61,582 nucleotides of DNA. It comes from Candidatus Eiseniibacteriota bacterium (GTDB taxonomy: Bacteria; Eisenbacteria; RBG-16-71-46; SZUA-252). This document shows positions 13,165 to 26,571 of the stretch, piece by piece. The stretch spans positions 89,525-151,106 of the forward strand of contig QJVW01000079.1 in NCBI GenBank assembly GCA_003235575.1, in the 5' to 3' direction. Within the stretch, counting starts at the first letter, position 1, and every line of letters begins with the position of its first letter. The position numbers were made by a program, and so were the translations under genes. The notes under the pieces are model-generated. The model was not told the origin of the DNA. It saw only the letters and a program-made list of their open reading frames with translations, and ran no database searches.

Positions 13165-14559
13165 TCATCGTTCGTCCGAGACCCCCGCGACGGCGCCCTG
13201 GAACGCCTCGGCAAGCGTCGGGTGGACGTGCACCGAATCCCGAATCACGCGCGCCGGGGCCCCGGCGTTCATGAGGGTCACGTAGAGGTGCACCAGTTCG
13301 GCCCCCTGGTCGGTGAACGCGGTGGCGCCGAGCACCAGCCCGCTCCGCTCCTCCACGATGACCTTGAGAAAGCCCTCCGAACGGCCCCGCTCCCGCGCCC
13401 GGCCGCTCCGCGCCATGTCGTACCGGTGAACGACGTGGGGTTTGCCCGAGGCGTTCGCCTGCGCCTCGTTCATCCCCACGCGCCCGATCTCGGGATCGGT
13501 GAAGATGGCGTACGGAACGATCCGCTCGGTCGTGCGCCCCCCGCCGTTCACCATCTGGTCGAGCAGGATGCGATGGTCGTCCCAACTGCTGTGCGTGAAC
13601 TGGGGGCCGCCGCGAATGTCGCCCGCGACCCAGATGCCGGGGACGTTCGTGGAGAGCCGCTGATCCGCCGTGACGATGCCGGCCGGGGATACCGCCACCC
13701 CGACCGTTTCGAGGCCCAGGTCGTCGGTGTTCGGCTGTCTTCCCGTCGCCACGAAGAGATGCGATCCCTCCAGCGAGTCCGAATTCCCGTCCCGTCGCAG
13801 AGTGAGCCGCACGCCGGAACCCGTCGCGGCCACGGCCTCCGTCGCGGAACGGAATCGGAACGCGATCCCTTCGTCCTGGAGCACCCGCTGGAGCGCGGCC
13901 GCGACGTCCTCGTCCTCGGTCTTCGCGATGCGGTCGGAGCGCTCGATCAACGTCACGCGGCTTCCCATGCGGCGATAGAACTGGCCCATCTCGAGCGCGA
14001 TCACCCCCGAGCCCAGGACCAGCACGTGGTCGGGTCGCTCGCGCAGCTCGAGCCAGTTGCCGGCGTGGAGATAGGGAACCGCGTCGAGCCCCGGGATCGG
14101 TGGGATCCGCGACCGGGTTCCGGTGTCGAGGACGATCTCCCTCGCCAGCACCTCGCGGTCATCCACCGTCACGACGAAGGCGTCCCCGCGCCGCCCCGCA
14201 AGGCGCGCGTGCCCTCGGAGCCACGCGGGGTTGCCCCCGGCGCCCTCGAACCAGCGCTCCAGTCCCGTGCGCGATTCGAGCGCGATGGCCCGGGCCCGGT
14301 CGATGACCGCGGCGAAATCGACCTCCACGCTCTGGATTCGGACGCCGAACTCCGTCGCGCGTCGGGCGTCCTGCGCCAGGCGCGCCGAGGCGACGGCGGC
14401 CTTGGTTGGCGTGCAGCCGAAATTGACGCACGAACCGCCGAGGAATTTCCGCTCCGCGAGCGCCACGCGGCGCCCTCTCCCAGCGAGGGCGTGCGCGAGG
14501 GGAGCGCCGGCCTGGCCGGCGCCAACGATGAGGACGTCGTAGTGATTGGTATCCGCCAT
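13165..14559 (-). CDS. FAD-dependent pyridine nucleotide-disulfide oxidoreductase (mercuric reductase-like)
   Basis: VLIVGAGQAGAPLAHALAGRG, redox-active GGSCVNFGCTPTK, ATGRQPNTDDLGLE, dimerisation domain. ATG 14559 has an upstream GGAGGG. Confidence 0.87.
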   Translation of the reverse strand: MADTNHYDVLIVGAGQAGAPLAHALAGRGRRVALAERKFLGGSCVNFGCTPTKAAVASARLAQDARRATEFGVRIQSVEVDFAAVIDRARAIALESRTGLERWFEGAGGNPAWLRGHARLAGRRGDAFVVTVDDREVLAREIVLDTGTRSRIPPIPGLDAVPYLHAGNWLELRERPDHVLVLGSGVIALEMGQFYRRMGSRVTLIERSDRIAKTEDEDVAAALQRVLQDEGIAFRFRSATEAVAATGSGVRLTLRRDGNSDSLEGSHLFVATGRQPNTDDLGLETVGVAVSPAGIVTADQRLSTNVPGIWVAGDIRGGPQFTHSSWDDHRILLDQMVNGGGRTTERIVPYAIFTDPEIGRVGMNEAQANASGKPHVVHRYDMARSGRARERGRSEGFLKVIVEERSGLVLGATAFTDQGAELVHLYVTLMNAGAPARVIRDSVHVHPTLAEAFQGAVAGVSDER

Positions 14560-14728
14560 GGCGAGCCCTCCTGGGTGTACGGAGCACAATGCCGAGAGCG
14601 CCGATATGGTTCCCGCCGCGGTTCGGGGGCCATCGGGTTGCGCCGGCACGGACAGGAGCCTACTATGTCCGCTTCCTGTCGCGAACCACTCCCGTTTCAT
14701 GCCCGCCCGCGTTGGGCCGGAGGACACG

Positions 14729-15502
14729 ATGGAGACCGAACAAGCCGTCGGCATCGCGCTCCGCGGCGTTCGAAAGCGATTCGGGGACACCACGGCGCTG
14801 GAGGCGACCGACCTGGAGGTCCCCCCGCACCGCTGCCTCGCGCTGATCGGACCGAGCGGGTGCGGCAAATCGACGCTCCTTCGGCTCGTGATCGGGTTGA
14901 TCGGCCCCGATGAAGGGGAGATTCACGTGGGGCCGACCCGCATGGAGCCGGTCGCACGCCGGGCCCTTCGCCTCCGCATGGGATACGTGATCCAGGAAGG
15001 GGGACTCTTCCCGCACCTCACCGCCCGCGAGAACGTCTCGCTCGTGGCCAGGGATCTCCGATGGGATGAATCCCGAATCAGCACGCGGATCGGCGAACTC
15101 CTCGCGTTGACCGGGATCGAGCCCCCCCTCCTGGATCGATACCCGGCCCAGCTGTCCGGGGGCCAGCGCCAGCGCGTGGGCCTCATGCGCGCCCTGATGC
15201 TGGATCCCGGGGTGCTCTTGATGGACGAACCGCTCGGGGCGCTCGATCCCATCATTCGCTCCAGACTACAAGAGGACCTGCGCCGGCTCTTCGCCCGTCT
15301 ACGAAAGACCGTGCTGCTCGTGACCCATGACATGGGGGAGGCGTCGTACCTTGGCGACGAGATCGCCATGATGCGCGCGGGGCGAATCGTGCAGCGGGGA
15401 AGTCTCGCGGATCTCCTGGAGCGCCCCGCCGATCCGTTTGTCACCGAGTTCATCCGCGCCCAGCGGCCGCTGGACGAGCTCGGGGAGCGGGGAACTACGT
15501 GA
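14729..15502 (+). CDS. ABC transporter ATPase, OpuCA/ProV-like (betaine/quaternary amine type)
   Basis: Walker A IGPSGCGKSTLLRL, signature LSGGQRQRVGLMRALMLDP, Walker B LLMDEPLGALDPI. Overlaps next gene. Confidence 0.9.
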   Translation: METEQAVGIALRGVRKRFGDTTALEATDLEVPPHRCLALIGPSGCGKSTLLRLVIGLIGPDEGEIHVGPTRMEPVARRALRLRMGYVIQEGGLFPHLTARENVSLVARDLRWDESRISTRIGELLALTGIEPPLLDRYPAQLSGGQRQRVGLMRALMLDPGVLLMDEPLGALDPIIRSRLQEDLRRLFARLRKTVLLVTHDMGEASYLGDEIAMMRAGRIVQRGSLADLLERPADPFVTEFIRAQRPLDELGERGTT

Positions 15503-17082
15503 CGCGCCGGTCCCCTCGCATCGCACGCGGCGGTTTCCGCCTCGTCCTCGGCGTGACGGCGTCGGCCTGCGCGGCGACGATGCTCGGACTCGTCGCCATC
15601 GCCACGTTCGCCACTCCGCTCCGTGCCGCAGCCGACGAGATGCCGCGCCTCGCGGTGGCGTCGAAATCGTTCCCCGAGTCCTGGGTGCTGGGGGATGCGC
15701 TGGCCGCGCTATGGCGCCGCGCGGGTTTCGACGTCGAGCACCGTCGCAATCTGGGCGGCACCGAAATCGTCTTCCAAGCGCTCCAATCGGGCGCCGTCGA
15801 CGCCTACCCGGAGTACACGGGTACGATCTCCGAGGTGATCCTCCAGGGCGCCAAGGGGGCCACGCTCCCGGTCATGCGCGAGGCGCTGGCGGCCCAGGGG
15901 ATCGGCGTGAGCGAGCCCCTGGGGTTCAACGACGGATACGCCCTGGCCGTTACCGAAGCGACACAGCAACGGTACGGCCTTCGACGGCTTTCCGATCTCG
16001 CCAAGCATCCCGAGCTGCGCCTGGGGCTCACGCACGAGTTCCTGGGACGACCCGACGGTTATCCGGGTCTCGCGCGCGCCTACGGACTGCGCCTGCGCCA
16101 CGTGCGCGGCATTCAGCACGAACTCGCCTATACGGCGATCGCGACGGGGAAGGTGGACGTGATCGACATCTACACGACGGACGCCCAGATCGAGCACCTC
16201 GGCCTGCGCGCCCTGGAGGACGATCGCGCGTTCTTTCCGCGCTACGACGCGGTGTGGCTCTACCGGCTCGATCTGCCGGAGCGCGCGCCCCGGGCCATGG
16301 AAGCCCTACAGCGCATGGCCGGAACGATCGACGAGGCGACGATGATTCGCGCCAACGCCAGGGTCGTGCTTGGCGAGCAGAGTTCGAAAGCGTCGGCCGA
16401 CACGCTGCTGCTCGAGGCGCTGGGCGACCGTGCTCCCGCGACCGCGCGCACGCGCAGCCCGGCGGCTCGCATGCTTTCGGCCACCGGGCAGCACGTCAAG
16501 CTCGTAGCGATCTCGCTGCTGGCGGCCATGCTCATCGGAATCCCGCTCGGCGTTCTCGCGACGCGAACGCGCTCCCTGGCGGCGGCGACGCTGGCCGGCG
16601 CCGGCGTCCTGCAGACGATCCCGTCGCTCGCGCTTCTCGCGTTCCTGATTCCGGTTCTCGGCATCGGCGTGGGGCCCGCGTTGGTCGCGCTCTTCCTGTA
16701 CAGTCTGCTGCCGATCGTCCGGAACACGTACGTCGGGATGACGACGATCCCGCCTGCGCTCAGCGAAGCGTCCGCCGCCCTGGGCCTCTCGGAGCGCGCG
16801 CAACTCTGGCGGATCCGACTGCCGATGGCGTCGCCGGCGATCATGGCCGGCATCAAGACGAGCGCCGTCATCAACGTGGGGACGGCCACGCTGGCAGCTC
16901 TGATCGGAGCCGGGGGACTGGGGGATCCGATCCTGGCCGGCATCCAGCTTCGGAGGACCGATCTGATTCTGCAGGGGGCCGTTCCCGCCGCTCTGTTGGC
17001 GCTCGTCGTTCAGTGGCTCTTCGACGCCGCGGACCGCGTGGTGATTCCGCGCGGGCTGCGCCTTCCGACGGAGCCGAAGTAG
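15499..17082 (+). CDS. OpuAC/OsmF-like substrate-binding domain fused N-terminally to an OpuCB/ProW-like permease
   Basis: SKSFPESWVLGDALAALWRRAGFDVEHRRNLGGTEIVFQALQSGAVDAYPEYTGTI, then permease TKTSAVINVGTATLAALIGAGGLGDPILAGIQL-type motif. GTG start overlaps preceding TGA. Confidence 0.88.
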   Translation: MTRRSPRIARGGFRLVLGVTASACAATMLGLVAIATFATPLRAAADEMPRLAVASKSFPESWVLGDALAALWRRAGFDVEHRRNLGGTEIVFQALQSGAVDAYPEYTGTISEVILQGAKGATLPVMREALAAQGIGVSEPLGFNDGYALAVTEATQQRYGLRRLSDLAKHPELRLGLTHEFLGRPDGYPGLARAYGLRLRHVRGIQHELAYTAIATGKVDVIDIYTTDAQIEHLGLRALEDDRAFFPRYDAVWLYRLDLPERAPRAMEALQRMAGTIDEATMIRANARVVLGEQSSKASADTLLLEALGDRAPATARTRSPAARMLSATGQHVKLVAISLLAAMLIGIPLGVLATRTRSLAAATLAGAGVLQTIPSLALLAFLIPVLGIGVGPALVALFLYSLLPIVRNTYVGMTTIPPALSEASAALGLSERAQLWRIRLPMASPAIMAGIKTSAVINVGTATLAALIGAGGLGDPILAGIQLRRTDLILQGAVPAALLALVVQWLFDAADRVVIPRGLRLPTEPK

Positions 17083-17217
17083 CCGCCACGTCGTCGCCGA
17101 CGTCTCGAAGCGCCCTCCATGTCACCGCCGATCTTGGGCGAAGAACTACTGGAATCTCGCGGCGATTCGGGGAATCATAGACGGTATCCCGCAGACCGAT
17201 CCCAAGGGGGCTTTGCC

Positions 17218-18534
17218 ATGCCAATCGAACGCCCGGTCCTCGAGGACCAACCGACGCTGATCGCCCGCCTGCAGGAGGCGCGCACGACGACCGACGATCT
17301 CTTCGGCCTCCTCCGGACCGAAGCCCTCTACGAGCGGCCGATTCCCGAGCGCCATCGCCTGATCTTCTACCTGGGACACGTCGAGGCGTTCGACGCGAAT
17401 CTCCTCTTTGGTCCGTTGGGCATCGCCTCGTTCCACCCGGAGTTCGACAAGCTCTTCGCCTTCGGCATCGACCCGATCGGGGGGGGACTGCCATCGGAAC
17501 CGCCGTCCGATTGGCCCACGGAGGCGGTCGTACGGGAGTACGGGGAGAAGGTGCGCGCCGCGCTGGACCGGGGGTTCTCCACTGCCGATTCCTCCCACCC
17601 GGATCTGGCCGACGGCGCCCGGATGAACGTGGCCATCGAGCACCGCCTCATGCACGCCGAAACGCTCGCGTACCTCTTCCATCAACTCGATCCTGCCCTG
17701 AAGCGCCCTCCAGCGGCGCCCGATCGGAAGCCGCCAGGGAACCCCGTCGCGCCGACGTCCGTGGATATTCCGGCGGGTCGCGCGACGCTGGGTCTTTCCC
17801 GCAACGGCGTCTTCGGGTGGGACAACGAGTTCGAGGAGCACGCCGTCGAGGTGCCCGCGTTCGACATCGACGCGATCAAGACCACCAACGGGCAGTTCCT
17901 GGAATTCGTGCGGGCCGGCGGGTACCGCGAGCGCGGGCTTTGGAGCGATGCCGACTGGGCGTGGCGGTCGGCGGCGAAGCTGGAACATCCGCCGTTCTGG
18001 ACGCCGGAGGGATCCGGCTACCGCTACCGGGGAATGTTCGGAACGGAACCGCTGCCGCTGGACTGGCCCGCGTACGTCAGTCACGCGGAGGCATCCGCCT
18101 ACGCGCGCTGGGTGAAGCGATCGCTTCCGAGCGAGTCGCAGTACCACCGTGCGGCCTACGGCACCCCCCGCGGAGCGGAACGGGCGTATCCCTGGGGCGA
18201 CGAGCCGCCGACCCCCGAGCGGGGCAATTTCGATTTCCAGCGCTGGGAGCCGGCGCCCGGCGGCGCCTATCCCGCGGGCCAAAGCGCGTTCGGCGTCCAT
18301 GATCTCCTCGGGAACGGCTGGGAGTGGACGCGAAGCCTCTTCGAGCCCTTCCGCGGTTTCGAACCACACCCGTTCTACAGGGGCTACTCCGCCAACTTCT
18401 ACGACGGTCACCACTACGTCATGAAGGGCGGGTCGCCTCGCACGGCCGCCTGCATGCTGCGGCGTTCCTTCCGGAACTGGTTCCAGCCGCACTACCCGTA
18501 CATGTACGCCGGATTTCGAACGGTGTCGGCGTGA
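17218..18534 (+). CDS. egtB: Ergothioneine biosynthesis EgtB-like non-haem iron sulfoxide synthase (DinB_2 + FGE-sulfatase domains)
   Basis: HX3HXE iron motif (EHRLMHAETL), C-terminal formylglycine-synthase-like domain (NGWEWTRSLFEPF...VMKGGSPRTAACMLRRSFRNW). ATG 17218 with AAGGGGG upstream. Confidence 0.85.
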   Translation: MPIERPVLEDQPTLIARLQEARTTTDDLFGLLRTEALYERPIPERHRLIFYLGHVEAFDANLLFGPLGIASFHPEFDKLFAFGIDPIGGGLPSEPPSDWPTEAVVREYGEKVRAALDRGFSTADSSHPDLADGARMNVAIEHRLMHAETLAYLFHQLDPALKRPPAAPDRKPPGNPVAPTSVDIPAGRATLGLSRNGVFGWDNEFEEHAVEVPAFDIDAIKTTNGQFLEFVRAGGYRERGLWSDADWAWRSAAKLEHPPFWTPEGSGYRYRGMFGTEPLPLDWPAYVSHAEASAYARWVKRSLPSESQYHRAAYGTPRGAERAYPWGDEPPTPERGNFDFQRWEPAPGGAYPAGQSAFGVHDLLGNGWEWTRSLFEPFRGFEPHPFYRGYSANFYDGHHYVMKGGSPRTAACMLRRSFRNWFQPHYPYMYAGFRTVSA

Positions 18535-19517
18535 AGCAGCCCCTCGACACGTCTCCCGAGTTCGCGGTGCCGACGGCCAACGCGATCGACGTGTCCGAGG
18601 TCCGCGACGGCCTGGGGCGCACGGGACAGAAGACGCTACCCTCGAAGTATTTCTACGATGCCGTCGGGTCCACGCTCTTCGAAGCGATATCGCAGCTGCC
18701 GGAGTACGGGCTAACCCGGGCGGGAGAGCGAATTCTCTCGGAGCGCGCCACGGAGATCGTTCGTCGGATCCCGTTGCCCGTGCGGGTGGCGGAACTCGGC
18801 AGCGGGAGCGGCCGCAAGACGAAGTACGTGCTCGCCGCGATGGCGGAACGGCAGCCGGTGGTCTACCACCCGATCGACATCTCCAGCGCGGCGCTTCAGG
18901 ATTGTGAACGCGAAATGGGGCAGATCCCCACGGTGCGCGTCGCTTCGGTGCACGCCGAGTACCTGGATGGCATGGCCATCATCGCGAAGGAGCGGCGCAA
19001 CGGGGAGCGGCTCCTGGTGCTGTTCCTCGGGAGCACGATCGGCAATTTCGAACGCGATGCGGCGGACGCGTTCATGCGGGAACTTCGCGGAACCTTGCAG
19101 ACGGGGGACACGCTGCTCCTGGCGACGGATCTCGTAAAGCCGGTGGACCAGATGATCCGCGCGTACGACGATCCCGCCGGCGTGACGGCGGCCTTCAACA
19201 AGAACCTCCTGGTCCGCATCAATCGGGAGCTGGATGCGGATTTCGACCTGACGCGGTTCGCCCACGAAGCCCGGTGGAACGCGGACGATCGGTGCATCGA
19301 AATGCACCTTCGCTCGACCGTTCGCCAGCGCGTGGCCGTGCGCGGGGCGGACCTCATCGTCCCCTTCGAGGAGAATGAGACGATCTGGACGGAGAGCTCC
19401 CACAAGTACACGCCCGAGGAGCCCGCGGCCATCGGCCGCCGCGCGGGATTCGAAGAGGGCGGTCAGTGGTTGGACCGGGATTGGCCCTTCGCGCAGACCC
19501 TCCTCGTCGCCTCCTGA
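18531..19517 (+). CDS. egtD: L-histidine N-alpha-methyltransferase EgtD
   Basis: TLPSKYFYDAVGSTLFEAISQLPEYGLTRAGERIL, ELGSGSGRKTKYVL, LFLGSTIGNFERD, SSHKYTPEE. GTG start overlaps egtB stop. Confidence 0.92.
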   Translation: MKQPLDTSPEFAVPTANAIDVSEVRDGLGRTGQKTLPSKYFYDAVGSTLFEAISQLPEYGLTRAGERILSERATEIVRRIPLPVRVAELGSGSGRKTKYVLAAMAERQPVVYHPIDISSAALQDCEREMGQIPTVRVASVHAEYLDGMAIIAKERRNGERLLVLFLGSTIGNFERDAADAFMRELRGTLQTGDTLLLATDLVKPVDQMIRAYDDPAGVTAAFNKNLLVRINRELDADFDLTRFAHEARWNADDRCIEMHLRSTVRQRVAVRGADLIVPFEENETIWTESSHKYTPEEPAAIGRRAGFEEGGQWLDRDWPFAQTLLVAS

Positions 19518-19521
19518 TCGC

Positions 19522-22359
<2,838 letters not shown>

Positions 22360-22675
22360 CCTTCCATTTTCTGCCGCCGTGCGGGCGCCAGCCGACCGTG
22401 GAATGGCCGTGGGTTTCCGATCGGCGGAAGTGCCTCGTGGGATCACTGCATCACCCCGCCATTGTAGGGGATGAGGTCCCGGGCGTCATCGCCCGGGGTT
22501 TGGCGGTCGGGGCGCCGCAGCGCGGCGTGGTACACTTGGTGTCGTCCATCGATGCGCGGGGTCCCTTGGAGTTTTTCATTATGGACGGCTCGAAAGTATT
22601 TGTCGGAACGTCAGTTACAGCGTGCTTGGCGAGTGTTGCGCGTGCCCCGTGCGGGAAGCCAGCCGGGGAGCCGCG

Positions 22676-25432
22676 GTGACCACGGACCGAGGTAGGCGCG
22701 CGCGGAACATCGTCCTCGGCGCCCGCTCGCTCCCGGAGCCGCTACGCGCTCCGTTCATCGACCGCGTGTGCCGCGGCGACGCGGCGCTTCGTGCGGAGGT
22801 GGATTCCCTCCTCTCCGGTCGCGCTCCGGAACCGGACTCCTTCGACGCTGTGATCGAGGCCGCCCTGCAGGAACAGCCGGCGCCGGCCCCGGCCCCGCCC
22901 GAACCCAACCTCGCCGCGCGTCCGGTCGGTCCGATGGGTCCTGCGGAGCCGCAGACCGACGCCGAGCCCGACCACATCGGGCCCTACCGAATTCTCGGCC
23001 GACTGGGCGAGGGGGCGCTGGGAGTCGTCTACCACGCCCGCCAGACCGAGCCGATCCGCCGCGACGTGGCGTTGAAGCGATTCCGCGCGGACCTCGACGC
23101 GGGCGTCGTGCTGTCGCGCTTCGACGTCGAGCGGGAAGCGCTGGCGCTGATGAACCACCCGCATATCGCCCGGATCCTCGACACGGGCTCGGACGCGGGG
23201 GGACGACCCTACGTCGTGATGGAGCACGTCGACGGCGCCTCCATCACCGCCTTCTGCGATCACCACCGTCTCACCATCCCCGAGCGCCTCCGACTCTTCC
23301 TCGTGGTGTGCGATGCCGTGCAGCATGCCCATCAGCGCGGCGTGCTCCACCGCAACCTGAAACCGTCCAACGTTCTCGTGACCGACGCGGGGGGAGCGCC
23401 GACGCCCATGGTGGCGGACTTCGGCGTGGCCGCGGCGATCGCCGATCCGCTGACGACCGACGGCATGGCGACGTTGGACACCATGCTGTCCCGGACGCCC
23501 GCCTACATGAGCCCGGAGCAGGCTGGATCGAGCGCGGCGAGCGTCGATACGCGTTCCGACGTGTACGCCCTCGGCGTCTTGCTCTTCGAACTCCTCACGG
23601 GCGGACTTCCGTTACGGCTGGAGGGGCGTTCCCTCGACGAGGCGCGCGAGGCGATCGCGACGCAGCCTCCGACGCTCCCAAGCGCGCACGGCGGCGGCGA
23701 AGCCGACGCCTACGCTCGCGGGACGACGCCGTCGGGACTGAGCCGGGCCTTGCGCGGCAGGTTGGATCGCGTGGTCGCGAAGGCGCTCCACAAGGATCCG
23801 GATCAGCGGTTCGCTTCGGTGGCGCACTTCGCCGAAGCCCTTCGCTCCCGCGCGGGGGGAACCGCGGATCGGACCAGCGAAGGATCGTGGCGTCACCGTG
23901 CGGGGTCGTTTCTGCGCGGGCACCTCCTGGCGGTTGGTCTCGTCGCGGCGGTCGCGCTTACGTTGATCGCGTTCGCCGCCAACCGTGCCGTCTCGACGGC
24001 GCGCTCCGAGCGGGATCGCGCCCGCGCGGCGGAAGCCGTGGCCCGAAACGAGGCGGCGGCGACGGACCAGGTGACGGCCTTCCTCGAACGCTTGTTCCGG
24101 GGCGCGGAGGATCCGCGTTCGCCCGGGGCATCGCTGCCGGCCCGCGCGCTGCTCGATCGCGGTGTGTTGCGCCTCCGCACCGAATTCCAGGCGGACTCGG
24201 TCTTGCGCGGCCGACTCCTGACCACGATGGGGGAGCTGTACCACGCGATCGGACTTCCTGACGAGGCGGATTCTCTGCTGCGCGAAGCCCTGGCCGTGCG
24301 GGAACGGTCGCTCGGGGCGGATCACCCGGACGTCGGGGCGACACTCGATCTGTTGGGAGCCGCGGCGCGCGATCGCGGCGCCGAGGACGCGGGGCTGTCG
24401 TACTTCGAACGCGCCCTCGCCATCCGAAGGGCGGCGCTGGGGGATTCCGCCGCTCCGGTCCTCGAGAGTTTTCGGCACGTCGCCGGCGCGAACCGGGCGC
24501 TGGGCCGCCTCGATACCGCGGAGCCCTTCCTTCGACGAGCGCTGGAACTGGCGCGGCGGTCGCGCGGCGGGGAGGATCTCGACGTCGCGACGGACGAAAC
24601 CGCGCTCGCATCGCTCCTGACCGAGCGGGGCGCGTACGACGAGGCGGACGTGTTGCTCCGCCACGCTCTGGCCACCCGGAGACGTCTCCTGGCGGCGGGG
24701 GATTCGAATCTCGCGACGACCCTGGACCAGCTGGGGGAGGTGGCGTGGCGCCGGGGTCGGTACGCGGAGGCCGAATCGCTGTGCCGCGAGGCCAGGGACC
24801 TCTATCGCGCGCTGCACGGCGAGGAGGACGCCGCGCTCGCGCGGGCCGACTACCGCCTGGCCCGCGCGCTTCGTGGGGAGGGGAACCTGGTCGACGCGGA
24901 GGCGTTCTACCGATCGGGGCTCGACATGGCGCGACGGACGCTTGGAAACCGCGGTCCCGAGTACGCAACCTACCTTCAGGGATTGGGCGATCTGCTGGTC
25001 TCGGGCGGACGCGTCGCGGAGGCGGAGCCGCTGCTCCGCCACGCGCTCGCCATGCGCCGGCGACTCTTCGGGGGCGACGATCCGAGGGTCGCGGGCAGTC
25101 TGGAGGCGATGGGGGAACTCGAGCTGGCGCGACGGCGCGCCTGGTCGGCGGAGCAGTACTTCACGCAGGCGCGAACCATCCGAGACTCCGCCCAGCCGGC
25201 GGCGAATCCCGAGCGCGCCACGCCGCTGCTGGGACTCGCGCGCGCCGCGCTGCTTCGCGGGGACGTCGCGGGGGCCACCCCGCTGGCGCGGTCCGCGGAC
25301 TCCCTTCGCGCCGCCGCGCTCGGAGACGCCCATCCCTTGACCGAGGAAGCGCGGGCGGTGTATGCAGAATGCCAGGGGGTGACACAGGGAGCCGCGACCG
25401 GTGCGCCCCGAGACGTACCGGTCGCGCCATGA
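22676..25432 (+). CDS. Ser/Thr kinase-like (predicted pseudokinase) TM/TPR protein
   Basis: Kinase fold with VALKRF lysine and ADFGVA, but catalytic loop reads HRNLKPSNV (cac cgc aac). TM helix followed by many TPRs. GTG start 22676 (alternative GTG 22622). Confidence 0.85.
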   Translation: MTTDRGRRARNIVLGARSLPEPLRAPFIDRVCRGDAALRAEVDSLLSGRAPEPDSFDAVIEAALQEQPAPAPAPPEPNLAARPVGPMGPAEPQTDAEPDHIGPYRILGRLGEGALGVVYHARQTEPIRRDVALKRFRADLDAGVVLSRFDVEREALALMNHPHIARILDTGSDAGGRPYVVMEHVDGASITAFCDHHRLTIPERLRLFLVVCDAVQHAHQRGVLHRNLKPSNVLVTDAGGAPTPMVADFGVAAAIADPLTTDGMATLDTMLSRTPAYMSPEQAGSSAASVDTRSDVYALGVLLFELLTGGLPLRLEGRSLDEAREAIATQPPTLPSAHGGGEADAYARGTTPSGLSRALRGRLDRVVAKALHKDPDQRFASVAHFAEALRSRAGGTADRTSEGSWRHRAGSFLRGHLLAVGLVAAVALTLIAFAANRAVSTARSERDRARAAEAVARNEAAATDQVTAFLERLFRGAEDPRSPGASLPARALLDRGVLRLRTEFQADSVLRGRLLTTMGELYHAIGLPDEADSLLREALAVRERSLGADHPDVGATLDLLGAAARDRGAEDAGLSYFERALAIRRAALGDSAAPVLESFRHVAGANRALGRLDTAEPFLRRALELARRSRGGEDLDVATDETALASLLTERGAYDEADVLLRHALATRRRLLAAGDSNLATTLDQLGEVAWRRGRYAEAESLCREARDLYRALHGEEDAALARADYRLARALRGEGNLVDAEAFYRSGLDMARRTLGNRGPEYATYLQGLGDLLVSGGRVAEAEPLLRHALAMRRRLFGGDDPRVAGSLEAMGELELARRRAWSAEQYFTQARTIRDSAQPAANPERATPLLGLARAALLRGDVAGATPLARSADSLRAAALGDAHPLTEEARAVYAECQGVTQGAATGAPRDVPVAP

Positions 25433-25446
25433 AGGATGGGGAGCGC

Positions 25447-26571
25447 ATGAGCGAATTCCACCGCACGACGACAACGTTCCAGCCCGGTGCGAAAACGCTG
25501 CCCCGGGCGTACTACACGTCGCCCGACATTCTGGAACAGGAGCGGGAGCGGATCTTCGCCCGTGGATGGAATCTTGTCGGGCGCGATTCGCGTCTCGCGG
25601 CGCCGGGCGACTACTTCGCCTGCACGGTCGCCGGCGAATCGATCCTCGTCGTGCGCGACCGCGAGGGGACGATCCGCGCGTTCTACAACCTATGCCGCCA
25701 CCGGGGGACCCGCCTGTGCGACGAGTCCTCGGGCCGGTTCCGCGATTCGATCCAGTGCGCGTACCATGCCTGGACCTACGCCCTGGATGGCCGCCTGGTG
25801 GGAGCGCCGCACATGCAAGACGCCCAGGATTTCGACAAGGCGGACCATCCGCTCCACCAGGCCGCGGTGGCGACGTGGGAGGGGTTCGTGTTCGTGAATC
25901 TGTCGGACCGACCGCCGTCCTTCGCCGAGAGTTGGGCGCCGGTGCGAGAACGATTCGCACGATTCGGCCTGTCGCGGCTCGAGGTAGGTCACCGCGTCGT
26001 CTACGACGTGGCGGCGAATTGGAAGCTGGTGTTCCAGAATTACTCGGAGTGCCTGCACTGTCCCACGATTCATCCCAAGCTCGCGTCGGTGCTGCCGTAT
26101 CAAAGCGGGGCGAACGACCTGGTGGAAGGCCCGTTCCTCGGGGGATACATGGAGATCAAGGCGCCGAACGTAAGCGCGACGATGAGCGGGAGCGCGTGCG
26201 GGAGGCTGGTGAGCGACGATTTGGGAGGCGACGATCGTGCGCGGGCGTTCTACTATTCCATCATGCCCAACATGCTGCTCAGCCTGCATGCCGACTACGT
26301 GAACTACTACGTCATCCGCCCCCTCGCCGTCGATCGGACCGAGGTCGAGTCGGAGTGGCTGTTCCATCCCGAGACGATCGCCGATCCGGCCTCCAACATG
26401 CGCGACGCGATCGAATTCTGGGATGTGACGAACCGGCAGGATTGGGACATCGTGCGCCAGAGCCAGCTCGGGATCGCCTCGCATCGCTACGCGCCGGGAC
26501 CCTATTCGCCCCGTGAGAGCATTCCCGCGGCCTGGGATCGCGAATACCTCCGTTGGATGACGGCGGCGTGA
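25447..26571 (+). CDS. Rieske [2Fe-2S] aromatic-ring-hydroxylating-type oxygenase alpha subunit (GbcA/choline-monooxygenase-like)
   Basis: Rieske CRHRGTRLC...CAYHAWTY, mononuclear iron ligands NYSECLHCPTIHP. Alternative ATG 25429 overlaps the kinase stop (ATGA). Confidence 0.88.
   Translation: MSEFHRTTTTFQPGAKTLPRAYYTSPDILEQERERIFARGWNLVGRDSRLAAPGDYFACTVAGESILVVRDREGTIRAFYNLCRHRGTRLCDESSGRFRDSIQCAYHAWTYALDGRLVGAPHMQDAQDFDKADHPLHQAAVATWEGFVFVNLSDRPPSFAESWAPVRERFARFGLSRLEVGHRVVYDVAANWKLVFQNYSECLHCPTIHPKLASVLPYQSGANDLVEGPFLGGYMEIKAPNVSATMSGSACGRLVSDDLGGDDRARAFYYSIMPNMLLSLHADYVNYYVIRPLAVDRTEVESEWLFHPETIADPASNMRDAIEFWDVTNRQDWDIVRQSQLGIASHRYAPGPYSPRESIPAAWDREYLRWMTAA

Follow-up and report, generated by a model that had tools for sequence, protein, structure and literature searches.

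The window analysed here, a 61,582-nucleotide stretch of a Candidatus Eiseniibacteriota contig, carries a gene for a member of the Hanks-type Ser/Thr kinase superfamily (Table 1), an assignment based on profile score (Pkinase 114.8 bits against a curated cut-off of 31.7) and on conserved residues, the GxGxxG glycines, β3 Lys, DFG, APE-type Glu, αF Asp and conserved Arg all being present. A single Pkinase domain and five matches to TPR_12 are found by Pfam, and together with hydropathy and structure prediction these delineate a PknS-like layout of kinase, one transmembrane (TM) helix and C-terminal TPRs. The AlphaFold2 model, computed from an alignment of sequences from the window and related loci only, predicts the kinase fold confidently and shows the TPRs as a superhelix, with low confidence in the juxtamembrane segment; among solved structures PknS of Xanthomonas citri (PDB 9eed, 41% identity) is its best match. 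The reading frame is open over its 918 codons and its codon-position GC is normal. All data on the gene derive from one metagenome-type assembly (2.9 Mb, 159 contigs, about 47 kinase domains), and among the kinases of this genome matched over the full domain it is the lowest-scoring. Matches to PADLOC systems (PD-T4-6, MAD6) were read as generic kinase-domain similarity, as were NCBIfam kinase matches, which scored far under their cut-offs.

Table 1. Features of the HRN kinase gene and its immediate neighbours (positions in the window)
Feature	Position	Strand	Basis or remark
HRN kinase CDS (kinase-TM-TPR, GTG start, 918 aa)	22676..25432	+	ORF translation, Pfam
Ribosome-binding-like motif GGGGAG	few bases 5' of kinase GTG		
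Helical N-terminal region, residues 4-47, ahead of kinase domain	22685..22816	+	AlphaFold2 model
Protein kinase domain, ~residues 104-389	22985..23842	+	Pfam Pkinase 114.8 bits; match to PknS 9eed
Gly-rich loop GEGALG	23006..23023	+	Alignment; GxGGMG/GxGGFG in relatives
β3 Lys134 (VALK), retained	23075..23077	+	Alignment
αC Glu152, retained	23129..23131	+	Alignment
Catalytic loop HRNLKPSN (CAC CGC AAC CTG AAA CCG TCC AAC)	23348..23371	+	Sequence, alignment
Asn227 codon AAC replacing catalytic Asp	23354-23356	+	Sequence, alignment
DFG motif (residues 248-250), retained; DFG+3 = Ala253	23417..23425	+	Alignment
Juxtamembrane segment, residues 384-416, eroded relative to HRD relatives	23825..23923	+	Region-wise identity, alignment
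Predicted TM helix (one), residues ~417-437	23924..23986	+	Hydropathy scan
TPR superhelix, residues ~489-882	24140..25321	+	Pfam TPR_12 x5; AlphaFold2 model
Rieske oxygenase gene, start overlapping kinase stop (ATGA)	25429..26571	+	
M16-like peptidase gene, divergent, upstream of kinase	19522..22446	-	

The Rieske oxygenase gene is probably co-transcribed with the kinase. A conserved pairing of the two was ruled out, since none of eight Rieske orthologues (67–74% identity) has an adjacent kinase within the stretches fetched, one of which includes just ~1.3 kb upstream, and the adjacency is thus local. The oxygenase shows distant similarity to demethylases of betaine, carnitine and stachydrine, and its presence in one window with glycine-betaine-type ABC transporter (OpuAC) genes (14546–17082) points to a possible use of quaternary amines. 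Between this transporter and the peptidase, positions 17119–19517 encode two proteins, the first with an FGE-sulfatase domain and the second with a histidine-specific methyltransferase domain, a pair that we take to resemble the EgtB/EgtD ergothioneine pair.

As a preliminary description of this DNA had claimed, the catalytic loop of the kinase reads HRNLK (codons cac cgc aac ctg aaa, 23348–23362), so that Asn227 of the 918-residue protein, encoded by AAC, takes the place of the HRD catalytic Asp of a competent Ser/Thr kinase. Alignment bears out the reported retention of the VALK lysine, the αC glutamate and DFG, to which the Mg-binding Asn232 can be added, and all four other kinases lying in or entering the window indeed have HRD, the loop of the kinase truncated at the start of the window having been read from the contig. 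Asp occupies position 227 in 49 of 49 subfamily relatives (50 aligned kinase domains), and by this loss of the canonical residue the protein falls under the sequence definition of a pseudokinase. When 47 genomes of the phylum were searched by exact codons for HRD[L/I/V/M/F]KPxN and its HRN counterpart, HRD loops outnumbered HRN loops by 704 to 1, the single HRN loop being that of the present kinase; the substitution is well beyond chance.

The same description called the protein otherwise intact, which calls for some qualification. Among the 50 sequences it is the one departing most from consensus, with differences, mostly within the juxtamembrane region, at 9 of the 57 columns conserved to 90% or more (median 2 per sequence). 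Region-wise comparison localizes the divergence further. Over residues 384–416 identity to the relatives is only 9–27%, while the relatives share 39–67% with one another; in the kinase core the corresponding values are 43–50% against a normal 49–59%, a slight excess of divergence, and in the TPR part 22–35% against a normal 24–32%. At the level of sequence identity, then, the erosion is specific to the juxtamembrane segment and the divergence of the TPRs is ordinary. Two changes in the core might be taken for additional catalytic losses, but neither was accepted as one: that of GGM to GAL in the Gly-rich loop (G114A), because the three GxGxxG glycines are retained, and that at DFG+3, which is Lys or Arg in 49 of 49 subfamily relatives and Ala253 here, because non-basic residues also occupy this position in 7 of 57 HRD kinases.

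Neither the relatives search, nor the GTDB-type genomes, nor the 47 genomes of the phylum yielded a close orthologue; the GTDB-type genomes contributed 15 loci with best identities of 32–42%, none of them an orthologue. The nearest relatives are ~40–54% identical, the best reaching ~41% over the full length (L031) and 54% over the first third (L040), and every one of them carries HRD, which shows only that, as far as these sequences go, the loss of Asp is lineage-specific. In a phylogenetic tree the HRN kinase groups with L031 and with L004, a paralogue from the same genome, inside a set of HRD kinases from its phylum, and all other HRN kinases branch elsewhere. This position indicates a separate, lineage-specific loss and rules out common ancestry with the other HRN kinases. 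Within the trio formed with L031 and L004 its tip is the longest (0.73 as opposed to 0.52 and 0.53). The nearest HRD paralogue in the genome (L174:3-3377) is laid out as kinase-AAA/NB-ARC-TPR and not as kinase-TM-TPR.

The genomic setting of the relatives provides further insight into the ancestry of the protein. An ECF sigma gene (Sigma70_ECF) adjoins the kinase on its upstream side in 24 of 42 HRD relatives, both nearest sisters included, in one case in divergent orientation, and all three strong Sigma70_ECF (PF07638) genes of the source genome likewise adjoin HRD kinases. No such gene lies beside the HRN kinase, where the divergent M16-like peptidase gene fills the upstream side. The absence of the sigma gene is by itself not diagnostic, since in 18 of the 42 HRD relatives, too, the stretch examined has no ECF gene next to the kinase. 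The LQPT(A/G)LVHEAY stretch of the relatives' sigma factors lacks a DAED motif and in this resembles ECF43 factors described as activated by kinase phosphorylation (PMC8999054). Elsewhere in the assembly the same kinase N-terminus occurs at two contig ends (L216, G000:C138:1-1500; L174, G000:C84:1-6000) whose overlap is near-identical yet imperfect, implying an ECF sigma–kinase pair split across two contigs and signalling strain mixture or end errors in the assembly.

A close characterized system is PknS, a kinase-TM-periplasmic-TPR receptor that phosphorylates its ECF43 sigma factor EcfK in X. citri (PMC13147305). The two proteins agree in domain order and kinase fold and are 41% identical where their kinase regions align, and the nearest HRD relatives of the HRN kinase adjoin an ECF sigma gene as PknS does; however, PknS has an HRD loop, autophosphorylates and lies next to its sigma factor gene, whereas the present protein has an HRN loop and no nearby sigma gene. 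Kinases in which Asn stands in for the catalytic Asp are usually inactive, although HER3 and JAK2 retain weak activity (PMC7586955, PMC9988210). Human PSKH2 (PMC9988210, PMC7586955) offers a parallel in that HRN is the sole canonical catalytic loss, with Lys, Glu, Asn and DFG retained, and that the loss from HRD ancestors is recent and lineage-specific, although it belongs to the eukaryotic CAMK family and lacks the TM-TPR part; mutating its Asn to Asp did not restore autophosphorylation under the conditions employed. The HER3/ErbB3 pseudokinase domain likewise places an HRN motif in a membrane receptor, one that binds ATP and acts mainly through pairing with active kinases, but it is of the tyrosine-kinase family and its αC Glu is missing (PMC4718504), leaving only the kinase fold in common. 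Bacterial pseudokinase families have already been described, the HRN-bearing ActPs2 among them (PMC12599244). These predominantly actinobacterial proteins share the Asp-to-Asn change, but they have Arg at the β3 Lys, mostly a deletion in DFG, and long insertions, in contrast to the intact VALK and DFG seen here.

Outside this phylum the HRN pattern occurred in 32 of 392 genomes from the phylum of a Planctomycetota genome and in 35 of 379 from that of a Myxococcales genome. Lys, Glu, Asn and DFG are all retained in 5 of 54 HRN domains checked, the present kinase included, and most of the others are further degraded. Some HRN kinases form conserved clades in the tree. A well-supported clade of 11 members (L159, L164–L173) from the Myxococcota-type phylum has a degraded DFG (DAG, DGG, DPG and similar) and would on sequence grounds constitute a conserved pseudokinase family; six members from the Planctomycetota-type phylum (L129–L134) share HRNxKPKN with GLGLAK or GMGLAK at the DFG site, and four of Myxococcota type (L154–L157) share HRNLKPxN with DLGLSV.

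Taken with the loss of the usual sigma-factor neighbour, the loss of the catalytic Asp suggests that the protein is now probably a non-catalytic membrane receptor. The earlier proposal of a nucleotide-binding scaffold with TPRs, in place of an active kinase, survives in part: a pseudokinase in the sequence-defined sense is supported, with nucleotide- and Mg-coordinating residues retained, and the protein probably binds nucleotide, but the TPR scaffold is conjectural. For kinases of this kind a mostly periplasmic location of the TPRs has been predicted (PMC11032199), and PknS has been described with the same topology; by analogy the membrane here probably separates the TPRs from the kinase fold. 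With modest confidence we lean towards a catalytically crippled receptor of PknS layout, descended in one lineage from a Hanks-type kinase paired with an ECF sigma factor. The ancestor would have combined a cytoplasmic kinase, one TM helix and extracytoplasmic TPRs, and its catalytic output would have been lost together with the sigma partner. Mg-ATP binding would persist, phosphate transfer may have fallen by orders of magnitude, and the TPR domain may contact a ligand or partner. If functional, the receptor would, by analogy, act without catalysis, most likely through nucleotide-dependent pairing with, or competition against, an HRD paralogue of the genome. That it now regulates the cell's remaining ECF-kinase pathways, allosterically or as a dominant negative, in the manner of a bacterial counterpart of HER3, is a speculative extension that we consider rather unlikely.

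Alternatively, the protein may be a weakly active kinase, in which Asn permits slow autophosphorylation within membrane-clustered receptors and the low activity is what is used. All other ATP- and Mg-coordinating residues are in place, and the HRN domains of HER3 and JAK2 show low activity (PMC9988210, PMC4718504), but the juxtamembrane segment conserved in catalytic relatives is eroded and the gene for a cognate ECF sigma substrate is missing, making this explanation doubtful. Gene decay, in which the ECF partner was lost first and kinase output afterwards, with the protein heading towards a pseudogene, would account for partner, catalytic Asp and juxtamembrane motif all having been lost, and for the orthologue search having found none; it appears improbable in view of 918 open codons with normal codon-position GC, kinase-core residues and TPR divergence that are normal, and a stop codon overlapping a conserved Rieske gene. 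An isolated one-base error is an unlikely source of Asn227, given the separate losses of the juxtamembrane motif and the ECF sigma partner, and an active kinase masked by a sequencing, assembly or strain-mixture error (GAC read as AAC) is very improbable: a single G-to-A change would suffice, there is one assembly only, and mixture does occur in this genome, where two contig ends overlap imperfectly, but the gene lies deep within a 151-kb contig and other independent departures accompany the substitution.

Losses of the catalytic Asp are recurrent in bacteria, and the probably crippled receptor described here, on its own a single gene in a single assembly, is a modest further example. Bacterial pseudokinases have barely been studied, and this protein lies at the mild end of their degradation. 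As HRD sisters of the same lineage keep their sigma partner, the conversion of a kinase into a pseudokinase through loss of its downstream target can be studied here in a tractable setting. Should the HER3-type role prove true, selection in such a bacterial receptor pseudokinase would act on sensing and pairing, and not on catalysis.
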